A stretch of DNA of 64,000 nt, taken from Halomicroarcula saliterrae (GTDB taxonomy: Archaea > Halobacteriota > Halobacteria > Halobacteriales > Haloarculaceae). The stretch lies in contig NZ_JAMQON010000004.1 in the NCBI RefSeq assembly GCF_031624395.1, positions 178,988 to 242,987 of the forward strand. The letters are read 5' to 3'. The position numbers were made by a program, and so were the translations under genes. Below, piece after piece: positions 17,961-22,041 of this stretch. The notes beneath the pieces were generated by a model, which saw only the letters and a list, made by a program, of their open reading frames with translations, was not told where the DNA came from and made no database searches. Numbering within the stretch: position 1 is the first letter of the stretch; every line of letters starts with the position of its first letter.

Positions 17961-18093
17961 GCGCGTCTTTCGGACGACTAATACCCCGTATAGACGCCGT
18001 TTAACAGTCCGAAACCGGCATCCAAGACCCGTGAGCGGTCGGACCATACGACTGTTTCGCTGAAATCATAATGTTCTTTAATTTCCTTATACG

Positions 18094-18138
18094 CGAACAG
18101 ACTGGTAAGATAGAAGAATTTAATAACCAGTCTGTTCG
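18094..18138 (+). promoter_or_regulatory. 13-bp inverted repeat flanking a TATA box, dabBA promoter
   Basis: The left arm cgaacagactggt (18094-18106) and right arm accagtctgttcg (18126-18138) are perfect reverse complements separated by 19 bp. The spacer and first base of the right arm contain atttaataa (18118-18126), a good TATA box. Transcription would start near 18150, giving a leader of about 60 nt before dabB. A protein bound to both arms would block TBP/TFB, so repression is the likely mode. Confidence 0.75.
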
Positions 18139-18212
18139 TTATGTGGACGAACGACGGCCGACATCGCCCGGAGTAGCTGTCCGGGTGGTGCCGGTCGACG
18201 AACACGCTATCA

Positions 18213-19691
18213 ATGTCAGACGAAACACAGCGCACGACGGTCGGACCACTTCCGAACGGGATAGGGCAGCAAGCACCGAGCACGCCGAACGCCCTGACCC
18301 GGGCCGTCTGGTTGCTGTGGGGGCTGAGTCTGGCCGCACTGGTCGGCCACGCGGTGAACGGCTGGTCACCCGCGTTCGGCAGTCTGGTCGCCGTCGACGG
18401 GCTGACCGTCCTGATGTGGACGGTCGTCACGTTCTTTTCGGGCATCGTCCACAGCTACTCCCGGCGCTACATGGCCGGCAGCGCCCACGAGACGCGCTTT
18501 TTCGCCACCGTGTTCGGCTTTACCGTGGTGGTGATGGCGCTGGTCGCGGCGAACCACGTCGCCCTCTTTGGCGCCCTGTGGCTGGCGATGGGGCTGTTGA
18601 TGGCACAGCTCATCGGCGTCATCGACGGCTGGCAGCAGGCACAGGCGGCCGCGGCGGTCGCCCGCAGGTACTTCCTCGCGAGCAGCGCGTTGCTCGGTGT
18701 CTCGCTGGCGGCGCTGTGGTTGGCGACCGACGCGACGACGCTCTCCGGAATCGCCGCGGCCTCGGACACGCTGGGCGGGCCGGTGTGGCTCCTCGCCGCC
18801 GGCGCGCTCGTCCTCGCGGCGATGATCCAGTCGGCGCTCATCCCGTTTCAGGGCTGGCTGCTCTCCTCGATGACCGCGCCGACGCCGGCGTCGGCGCTGA
18901 TGCACGCCGGGTTCGTCAACGCCGGCGGCATCCTGCTGACCCGCTTTGCCCCGGTCATCACCGTCGACCCCACACTCATGCTCGCAGTTGTCGGCGTCGG
19001 CGCGGCCAGCGCCCTCGGGGGGAAGCTCCTGAAATCGGTCCAGACGGACGTCAAGAGCAAGCTCGGCTGTTCGACGGTCGGCCAGATGGGCTTTATGATA
19101 ATGCAGGCCGGGCTGGGCTTTTTCGGAGCTGCCATCACCCACCTCATCCTGCACGGCTTCTACAAGGCCTACCAGTTCCTCTCCTCCGGTGACGGCGTCG
19201 AACACAACAGCCCCGCCGGGCGGCCGGGCCGCAGGGAGAGCGTCGTCGGCGTCGCCGTGACGCTGTTGACCGCACTGGTCGGCGGCGCGCTGTTCGCGGT
19301 GCTGACGGGGAAGGGAGCGAAACTCGACAGCGGCCTCCTGTTGACCTTCTTCGTGGTGTTCACCACGCTACACGCGGCCCGCAACGCGGTCCAGCACACC
19401 GAACTGCCGGCGATGGCCCGCTACGGGGCCGTCCCGCTGGTCTTCTTCCCGGCCATCGTCGTCTACGCCGTGGTCTACGAGGGGGTCTCCGGGCTCTTGG
19501 CAGTGGGCACGGCGACGACCGAACTGACCCTGCTTCACGGCGCCGTCGCCGTCTTCTTCGTCGGCGTCTACCTCGCCATCGAGACCGGCGTCCACGAGCA
19601 CAGCCAGCGCCTCTACGTGGCGCTGTTGAACGCCAGCCAACCGCCGACCGACACCGTGTTGACTTCCACGGAGGACTACAATGAGTACTGA
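18213..19691 (+). CDS. dabB: DabB, NuoL-like proton-conducting subunit of inorganic carbon uptake system
   Basis: The 492-residue polytopic protein belongs to the NuoL/MrpA proton-translocating family. It has the motifs FFSGIVHSYSRRYM, MIQSALIPFQGWLLSSM, APTPASALMHAGFVNAGG (the antiporter signature) and STVGQMGFMI. It is paired with a DUF2309 gene that it overlaps by 11 bp, which identifies it as DabB rather than a complex I subunit. Family knowledge: DabB couples proton flow to CO2 hydration by DabA. The start ATG 18213 fits the promoter at 18118-18126. Confidence 0.9.
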   Translation: MSDETQRTTVGPLPNGIGQQAPSTPNALTRAVWLLWGLSLAALVGHAVNGWSPAFGSLVAVDGLTVLMWTVVTFFSGIVHSYSRRYMAGSAHETRFFATVFGFTVVVMALVAANHVALFGALWLAMGLLMAQLIGVIDGWQQAQAAAAVARRYFLASSALLGVSLAALWLATDATTLSGIAAASDTLGGPVWLLAAGALVLAAMIQSALIPFQGWLLSSMTAPTPASALMHAGFVNAGGILLTRFAPVITVDPTLMLAVVGVGAASALGGKLLKSVQTDVKSKLGCSTVGQMGFMIMQAGLGFFGAAITHLILHGFYKAYQFLSSGDGVEHNSPAGRPGRRESVVGVAVTLLTALVGGALFAVLTGKGAKLDSGLLLTFFVVFTTLHAARNAVQHTELPAMARYGAVPLVFFPAIVVYAVVYEGVSGLLAVGTATTELTLLHGAVAVFFVGVYLAIETGVHEHSQRLYVALLNASQPPTDTVLTSTEDYNEY

Positions 19692-22041
19692 ATCCACTAT
19701 CCGCGACAGCATCGACGACGCAGCCGCCACCGTCGGCTCGGTCTGGCCCATCCACTCGTTCGTGACGGCCAACCCCCTCTCGGGGTTCGAGGACCAGCCG
19801 TTCGACGAGGCGGTCGCACAGGCCACCGATATCCTCGGCGGCCGGGGCTATCCCAGCCCGGAGACGTTCCGCCAGGCCCTGGAGCGCGAGCAGATAGACC
19901 GCGAAATCCTGGAAGCGGAACTCGCCGAGGCCGGCTACGAGGCCGACCCGGAGGCGCTGCTCGACCGTATGGACACGACCGTCGACGCTGACGAGGCCGC
20001 AGAGGACACGGTCGAGGACCGCGTCGACCACGTGCTGACGAAGTGGCTGTCTGCCTTCCTCGACGAGGGGCGCGCCCACTGGGCGCTGCCGGACCGTGAC
20101 CTCGGGTTCTACGGCGTCTTCCGCAACGTAGCCGCCTACGACACCCAGATTCCCGACGCGGGCATCGTCGCGGACCTGCCGGCGACGCCGGTCGAGGCCA
20201 TCGAGACGGTGCTCGACCCGTATCCCGAGGCGCAGTGGGAGGCCATCTTCGAGGAGCAACTCTCCGCGCTCCCGGGCTGGACCGGCTTCATCAAACAGCG
20301 TGCCGAAGACGGGGGCGAGTGGCAGTCGAGGCATCCGATAACACTCGCGGGGTATCTCGCGGTGCGTCTGTCGTTGTTCGACGCCGTCGACGCCGACCTC
20401 TCGCCGGCCAAATCCCACACGGCCGAGCCGAACGAAACAGACGAGCTCAGCGAAGCGTTCCTCAGCGCCTGGGAGGCGACCTACCGCGAGGAGCTGGTCG
20501 ACGCCGTCAGCGAGGCCAGCGAGGAACGTGCCGACGCCGACGACGGCCGTCCTGACGCACAGCTCGTCTTCTGTATCGACACCCGCTCCGAGGTCCTGCG
20601 TCGCCACCTCGAGGACACGGGCGACTACGAGACCCACGGCTACGCCGGCTTTTTCGGCGTTCCGATGGAGTACGAGGGGTACAACTCGGAGGTCTCCGTC
20701 GAGGCGTGCCCCCCCATCGCGGACACCCAGCACACCATCACCGAGCACCCGACCGACGGCGAGAGGCAGGCCGAGTACGACCACCTGACGGGCATCCGCG
20801 AGGCCGCCGCCGAGATTGTCGAGACCATCGAGTCCAACGCCGCGACCGCCTACGGCTTCGTCGAAAGCGCCGGGAGCGGCTACGGGCTCGCACTGGCGGG
20901 CCGCACGCTGGTTCCCGGGCGCGTCCACGACCTGTTCGACAGCGTCGACGGGAGAGTGCCCGACGAGCACGAGTTCTGTAGCCCGTCGGTCGAGACCCTC
21001 ACGCTCGAAGAGAAGGTCGGGTACGCCGAGACCGCCTTCGACCTGATGGGGTGGGACCAGTTCGCCCGTCTGGCGGTGTTCACCGGCCACGCCAGCGAGA
21101 CCGCGAACAACCCGTACGACTCGAGTCTGGACTGTGGGGCCTGTGCCGGCAACCCCGGCGGCCCGAGCGCCCGCGTCCTCGCGGCGATCTGTAACCAGGA
21201 CGCCGTGCGGGAGGAACTCCGCGAGCGCGGCTTCGACATTCCCGACGACACCGTGTTCCTCGCCGGCCAGCACAACACCACGACCGACGAGGTCGACCTG
21301 TACGACAGCGGTGTGCCCGAGAGCCACGCCGAGGAGCTCGAAACGCTGCGCTCGGACCTGAAGGCGGCCCGCGAAGGCGCGACTGCAGAACGCACGAGGT
21401 CGGTTGACGACGCCGTCCGCGAGACCGAGCGCAAGGCGGCCGACTGGGCAGAGACCCGCCCCGAGTGGGGGCTGGCCGGCAACGCCGGTTTCGTCGTCGG
21501 GCCGGGGGAGCTGGCGGCCGACCTCGACCTCGACGGCCGCGCGTTCCTGCATTCGTACGACTGGACGACCGACCCCGACGGCGACGCGCTGGAAGCGATC
21601 ATGACGGCGCCGATGGTCGTCACCCAGTGGATTAACTGCCAGTACTACTTCTCGACCGTCGACAACGCAGTGTACGGCAGCGGGTCGAAGATAACCCACA
21701 ACCCCGTCGGCAACGTCGGCGTCTACCAGGGCAACGGCGGCGACCTGATGACCGGCCTGCCGCTGCAGTCGCTCAAGGCGGCCGACGACGAGCCCTACCA
21801 CCAGCCGCTGCGTCTCTCGACGGTCATCCACGCACCGGTCGACACCGTCACCGACATCCTCGCGGACCACGAGGACGTGGCCGGTCTGCTCGACAACGGG
21901 TGGCTCTCGCTGACCGTCGTCGACCCGACCCAGGACCACACCGCCTTCCACTACGCCGGCGAACTCTCCTGGAGCCCGGCCAGCAAAGACGTGGCCGCCG
22001 AACCGTCTGCCGAAGCCACGCCGGCCGTGGCCGACGACTGA
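19681..22041 (+). CDS. dabA: DabA, carbonic-anhydrase-like subunit of inorganic carbon uptake (DUF2309/UPF0753)
   Basis: The 786-residue soluble protein has the DabA opening VWPIHSFVTANPLSGFED and the beta-carbonic-anhydrase-like zinc site: Cys298 and Asp300 in VFCIDTRSE, His470 in FTGHASETANNPY and Cys485 in SLDCGACAGNPGG. The spacing Cys-X-Asp, then His, then Cys 15 residues later matches the DabA zinc ligands described for Halothiobacillus. With DabB it should hydrate CO2 to bicarbonate in the cytoplasm, driven by the membrane ion gradient. The ATG at 19681 overlaps dabB. No carboxysome or RuBisCO gene is nearby. Confidence 0.93.
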   Translation: MSTESTIRDSIDDAAATVGSVWPIHSFVTANPLSGFEDQPFDEAVAQATDILGGRGYPSPETFRQALEREQIDREILEAELAEAGYEADPEALLDRMDTTVDADEAAEDTVEDRVDHVLTKWLSAFLDEGRAHWALPDRDLGFYGVFRNVAAYDTQIPDAGIVADLPATPVEAIETVLDPYPEAQWEAIFEEQLSALPGWTGFIKQRAEDGGEWQSRHPITLAGYLAVRLSLFDAVDADLSPAKSHTAEPNETDELSEAFLSAWEATYREELVDAVSEASEERADADDGRPDAQLVFCIDTRSEVLRRHLEDTGDYETHGYAGFFGVPMEYEGYNSEVSVEACPPIADTQHTITEHPTDGERQAEYDHLTGIREAAAEIVETIESNAATAYGFVESAGSGYGLALAGRTLVPGRVHDLFDSVDGRVPDEHEFCSPSVETLTLEEKVGYAETAFDLMGWDQFARLAVFTGHASETANNPYDSSLDCGACAGNPGGPSARVLAAICNQDAVREELRERGFDIPDDTVFLAGQHNTTTDEVDLYDSGVPESHAEELETLRSDLKAAREGATAERTRSVDDAVRETERKAADWAETRPEWGLAGNAGFVVGPGELAADLDLDGRAFLHSYDWTTDPDGDALEAIMTAPMVVTQWINCQYYFSTVDNAVYGSGSKITHNPVGNVGVYQGNGGDLMTGLPLQSLKAADDEPYHQPLRLSTVIHAPVDTVTDILADHEDVAGLLDNGWLSLTVVDPTQDHTAFHYAGELSWSPASKDVAAEPSAEATPAVADD

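Follow-up and report, generated by a model that had tools for sequence, protein, structure and literature searches.

The 64-kb stretch of haloarchaeal DNA analysed here, referred to as the window, carries dabB and dabA next to a gene encoding an Lrp/AsnC-family regulator, and the question arose of how transcription of the two transporter genes is controlled. A DabA protein (PF10070) is encoded together with an adjacent NuoL-like DabB, the combination by which a DAB is recognised, and the arrangement of dabB and dabA in one operon is shared with the known DAB/DAC inorganic carbon transporters (PF10070 + PF00361). DACs/DABs have been reported in the class Halobacteria (PMC10880623) and the dabAB genes of Haloferax volcanii are annotated as HVO_2410/2411 (PMC8305020). 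An earlier reading of the window from its letters alone (the sequence-only reading) had named no described operator for an archaeal DAB and, indeed, neither an operator nor a regulator was found in the open literature that was searched.

A perfect inverted repeat at the dabBA promoter

The sequence-only reading had drawn attention to a perfect 13-bp inverted repeat around the TATA box of dabBA, and the repeat is present exactly where it was placed. The left arm, cgaacagactggt (18094-18106), is the exact reverse complement of the right arm, accagtctgttcg (18126-18138); each has 13 bp and the spacer between them is 19 bp long. A TATA-like TTTAATA lies inside the spacer, adjoining the right arm. 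The distance given for the Lrp-like ORF was also right, its end being 133 bp before the left arm (Table 1). No other perfect inverted repeat of at least 13 bp within 40 bp was found in the window. Three of 12 Markov-resampled windows held an inverted repeat as long within 40 bp and, therefore, the length of the repeat is by itself weak evidence; the same replicates favour the reading of the repeat as a simple one that has no part in regulation and would have arisen by chance or form a DNA or RNA hairpin.

Table 1 Features of the lrp-dabBA region, in coordinates of the window
Feature	Position	Strand	Remarks
Lrp/AsnC-family regulator gene, 154 aa	17496..17960	+	Pfam HTH_AsnC-type; candidate regulator dedicated to dabBA
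Upstream (third) Lrp-type dyad site AATCATAATGTTC	18064..18076	-	Centre 18070; conserved aAaCATAATGTTCtATAAT, core at -27/-28 from middle site
Middle Lrp-type dyad site GAACAGACTGGTA	18095..18107	+	Centre 18101; holds most of left arm; logo position 0
BRE-like stretch ATAGAAGAA	18110..18118	+	ATAGAtAGA conserved directly upstream of TATA
TATA box TTTAATA of dabBA	18119..18125	+	Conserved in 113 promoters
Downstream Lrp-type dyad site AACCAGTCTGTTC	18125..18137	-	Centre 18131; holds most of right arm; between TATA and inferred start
Hairpin in 5' leader of dabB mRNA	18152..18200	+	z = -3.4
dabB	18213..19691	+	Pfam Proton_antipo_M, 7e-32; start ATG conserved in alignments
dabA	19681..22041	+	Pfam DabA PF10070, 2.7e-260

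Three dyad sites in a fixed register

Relatives of dabA and dabB were gathered from named genomes and from the family of the window, and a comparison of 117 non-identical regions upstream of dabB gave 113 alignable promoters from many haloarchaeal genera. A search for the arm sequence at orthologous dabB genes had been proposed as a check, with absence of the repeat as a refutation; the element is present in haloarchaeal dabB promoters, and the proposal withstands this check. Of 102 promoters searched with the plain pattern GAAC-N35-GTTC around a TATA-like element, 87 gave a match. The alignment logo of the 113 promoters reads GAACRNWNYG-N23-CRNWNYGTTC, and its spacer contains TTTAATA and an ATAGAtAGA stretch. 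The perfection of the arms is not kept among dabB promoters; kept is a 10-bp core per arm (GAACRNWNYG and CRNWNYGTTC), and one half-site rule, GAACRNWNYG, fits both arms, one of them being reverse-complemented.

With a motif made from the two arms, one more copy is detected upstream, in CATAATGTTCTATAAT. Since the invariant core C-R-N-W-N-Y-G has a dyad symmetry of its own around W, each site is a 13-bp element, GAACR-NWN-YGTTC, with one strong outer half. The outer halves are asymmetric and the 13-bp palindrome is imperfect; the upstream site is a near-perfect palindrome and strongly conserved. The view of the repeat as one operator of two 13-bp arms thus had to be given up: each arm is the strong outer half of a dyad of its own, and a third site accompanies the two. 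A single TetR-like 18-bp operator per arm was considered as well and dropped on the 10-bp core and the 30-bp register.

The distances between dyad centres in the 113 promoters were 30 bp (125 pairs), 31 bp (42), 60 bp (31) and 61 bp (42), with hardly any others, and mononucleotide-shuffled promoters had no site pairs at 30 bp. All three sites were found with at most one mismatch each in 108 of the 113 promoters. Conservation is highest for the downstream site, which is above threshold in 98% of weighted promoters; the middle site reached 96%. In the window, the centres lie 31 and 30 bp apart. Archaeal Lrp sites are described as imperfect inverted repeats of 13-17 bp with AT-rich centres, clustered on one face of the helix at a distance of two or three turns (PMC2995911). 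GAACR-NWN-YGTTC is an imperfect dyad within this size range with an A/T centre, and the sites follow each other in helical phase, 30 or 31 bp apart; the geometry of the dabB array fits the published description.

Sites are also found in L060, a contig of a bacterial MAG that bears the label Bradymonadaceae. They start at 2354, 2384 and 2414, exactly 30 bp apart and all in one orientation, the first being off consensus at one position. Such a common orientation is expected of dyads, not of a simple inverted repeat, and sites that are not inverted at all argue against a repeat without regulatory role. So do the conserved sequence, the rigid spacing and the dab-specificity in more than 100 promoters, the fact that the arms elsewhere need not be exact mutual complements, and the position of the sites upstream of the inferred transcript start. 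By this conservation the no-role reading is already refuted, and its probability is close to nil; it is the conservation of the arms, not their length, that takes the dabB repeat beyond chance.

The L060 contig (sites at 2354-2423) carries an lrp gene that is 80% identical, dabBA and a carbonic anhydrase gene, and has TTGACA where haloarchaea have the TATA box. Either horizontal transfer or a mis-binned contig would account for this locus. A sigma-70 promoter, with TTGACA at the TATA position, was considered and set aside, as no convincing -10 box was found and the contig may be mis-binned.

The adjacent Lrp-like gene and its link to dab

The protein encoded upstream of dabB has an N-terminal AsnC-type helix-turn-helix (PF13404, 7.8e-13, above the Pfam cut-off), and no RAM domain was hit in Pfam. 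Its AlphaFold model, which is of moderate confidence (pLDDT 64), shows the helix-turn-helix followed by a beta-alpha-beta-beta-alpha-beta arrangement of the RAM type, and the best Foldseek hits of the model are nearly all Lrp/AsnC structures, full-length ones included, among them the FL11-DNA structure 2e1c. The model thus points to a C-terminal RAM domain, and the assignment to the Lrp/AsnC family is also backed by sequence search. The haloarchaeal LrpA1 and Lrp (NF041395, NF041396) belong to the same family and matched weakly: the curated NCBIfam cut-offs of LrpA1_Halo and Lrp_Halo were missed, with 47.6 instead of 250 and 34 instead of 190 bits, and scores so far below the cut-offs place the protein in a separate ortholog group. 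Within haloarchaea the orthologs are 71-100% identical, the next paralogs at most 50%. Autoregulation is seen in many Lrps. Upstream of lrp itself no conserved site was found (8 half-sites in 104 upstream regions), which argues against autoregulation in this case and is a point against the proposal that the protein regulates dabBA.

At 108 of 117 loci, the lrp gene precedes dabB and shares its strand; several of the remaining loci have short flanks. Among 146 genomes of the same family, an ortholog is present in 100 of 101 with dab and in none of 45 without (Fisher p 4e-37). In the whole order (392 genomes), 214 genomes have both Lrp and dabA, 174 have neither and one has Lrp only, so that Lrp accompanies dabA in 214 of 217 genomes; in one of the dab-only cases (G168) the C-terminus of Lrp is cut by the contig end, and in another (G400) dabB is at a contig edge. 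From these counts, the Lrp-like gene represents a dedicated ortholog group tied to dab; joint inheritance could account for part of the linkage and co-occurrence.

Two genomes depart from this arrangement. In G155 (L245:900-1133), where no lrp ortholog was found, the upstream site is lost and the middle site has an altered core that lacks the central W, a decay of the array that may be read as a natural experiment. In G120 a near-consensus array is kept although lrp lies at a distance of about 54 kb, which is consistent with action in trans. Both bear on the possibility that the array is bound by an unlinked regulator, such as one of the other Lrp paralogs, and that the adjacent gene is linked for other reasons. 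Lrp paralogs are numerous in haloarchaea, Halobacterium salinarum having eight, and their motifs overlap (PMC4236453), and G155 keeps part of its array with no ortholog found; but the adjacent ortholog group co-occurs with dab almost one to one, the persistence of the array in G120 argues for trans action of the distant gene, and dab-less genomes are without the array despite having Lrp paralogs. An unlinked regulator is, therefore, very unlikely. The proposal of a local Lrp-like regulator/operator pair thus stands with respect to the regulator, for which the adjacent gene is the right candidate by linkage, co-occurrence and the Lrp-type geometry of the sites and whose binding to the array is very probable, and needs correcting with respect to the operator, which is not a two-armed unit.

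Specificity of the operator for dabB

The strict GAAC...GTTC operator pattern has one match in the genome from which the window was taken, and this match is at dabB. In the family it was found in 85 of 101 genomes with dab versus 2 of 45 without, and a reversed control pattern gave no match in the 146 genomes. Across the order, the pattern was matched in 186 of 392 genomes. Some genomes with dab contain further GC-rich matches distant from dab, which look like chance occurrences.

Candidates for additional operators were rejected. Two dab-less genomes (G136 and G137) gave perfect matches, but these are rich in GC and have no TATA-like centre. A wider regulon in the genome of the window was sought at up to two mismatches, which gave 58 more places; the matches listed look GC-rich and none was accepted as a second target.

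A conserved hairpin in the dabB leader

About 75 nt lie between the downstream site and the ATG of dabB, presumably for the most part mRNA leader. Folding of 86 leaders gave a mean z of -1.56 versus -0.17 for a control region. Native leader halves pair better than between-genome swaps, with 37% ranking in the top 5% of swaps compared to 10% in the control, and compensatory changes were found in four of the seven consensus hairpin pairs in an alignment of a 30-sequence subset. The dabB leader had no match in Rfam up to E = 1. Post-transcriptional control of dabB by the conserved hairpin is possible.

A proposed model of dabBA control

We propose that the Lrp-like protein from the adjacent gene binds the three-site operator cooperatively and blocks the core promoter of dabBA, a mechanism that we consider probable. 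One dimer would bind to each 13-bp imperfect dyad GAACR-NWN-YGTTC, and since the centres are 30-31 bp apart, approximately three helical turns, the dimers would sit on one face of the DNA. Neighbouring dimers would touch, and some 75 bp of DNA, including the BRE and the TATA box, would be bent or wrapped by them. With the middle site immediately upstream of the BRE and the downstream site flanked by TATA and the inferred start, an occupied array would block TBP/TFB or RNA polymerase. Expression of dabBA would stay off until the oligomer is altered by a metabolic signal, which may plausibly be connected with the supply of inorganic carbon.

Repression is the most likely sign of this control, and activation from the two upstream sites is possible. 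If the same protein and array served chiefly for activation, the upstream and middle dimers would recruit TBP/TFB and the downstream site would tune or shut off expression. Two sites do lie upstream of BRE and TATA, as in Ptr2-type activation (PMC2995911), and the upstream one is the strongly conserved, near-perfect palindrome; but a dimer on the most conserved site (98%), downstream of TATA and before the inferred start, would clash with the polymerase, and activation as the main function is unlikely.

As a repressor, the proposed complex would resemble Ss-LrpB of Sulfolobus solfataricus, three dimers of which wrap approximately 100 bp of DNA (PMC2995911), in its three interacting dimers, its several sites and the wrapped DNA. 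Unlike in Ss-LrpB, other protein and other sites are involved, the target is apparently a single operon, which encodes an inorganic-carbon pump, and the regulator's own gene is without sites. LrpA of Pyrococcus furiosus (1i1g) represses from just downstream of TATA by blocking the recruitment of RNA polymerase (PMC2995911); it shares with the dabBA regulator the Lrp fold and a site that borders TATA on the downstream side, but acts on its own gene, whereas the target proposed here is the neighbouring dabBA. FL11 (PH1519) of Pyrococcus horikoshii is similar in its 13-bp palindromic dimer site and is the structural match in 2e1c. Its site sequence presumably differs from the dabB sites, and FL11 responds to lysine.

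A wider proposal can be made tentatively: the protein would be an Lrp-family sensor devoted to inorganic-carbon status and not to amino acids, with a single-target regulon throughout the order, a three-dimer array wrapping the dabBA core promoter and a post-transcriptional layer in the leader hairpin. We regard this as unlikely to hold as a whole.

With the array and the Lrp-like protein, a candidate operator and its cognate regulator are apparently put forward for the first time for a DAB inorganic-carbon pump of archaea. Predictions of sites and spacing can be tested directly at the bench, also in Haloferax, and Haloferax profundi carries the linked lrp gene. A regulator that apparently serves only the carbon pump in heterotrophs could show why haloarchaea pump CO2, and could reveal which signals besides amino acids an Lrp protein reads.

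Neighbouring genes and a second DAB

Four relatives have a second DAB paralog, approximately 50% identical and with divergent dabB and dabA, which has neither an Lrp neighbour nor an array (L241, L242, L243 and L244); this, too, speaks for the proposed pairing of regulator and array at dabBA. In L242 it is followed by a gene resembling nitrite/sulfite reductase, as recognised by eye.

At some loci, another gene is inserted between lrp and dabB. At L052 this is an amidohydrolase gene (PF01979; 1172-2188, minus strand), and several other loci have an ORF of similar length (338 aa) at this position. At L040 (1640-2335) and L068 (1628-2329) the inserted gene is beta-carbonic-anhydrase-like (Pro_CA), the matches being weak and the one in L068 below the Pfam cut-off; a carbonic-anhydrase-like gene at this place is in keeping with an inorganic-carbon module.
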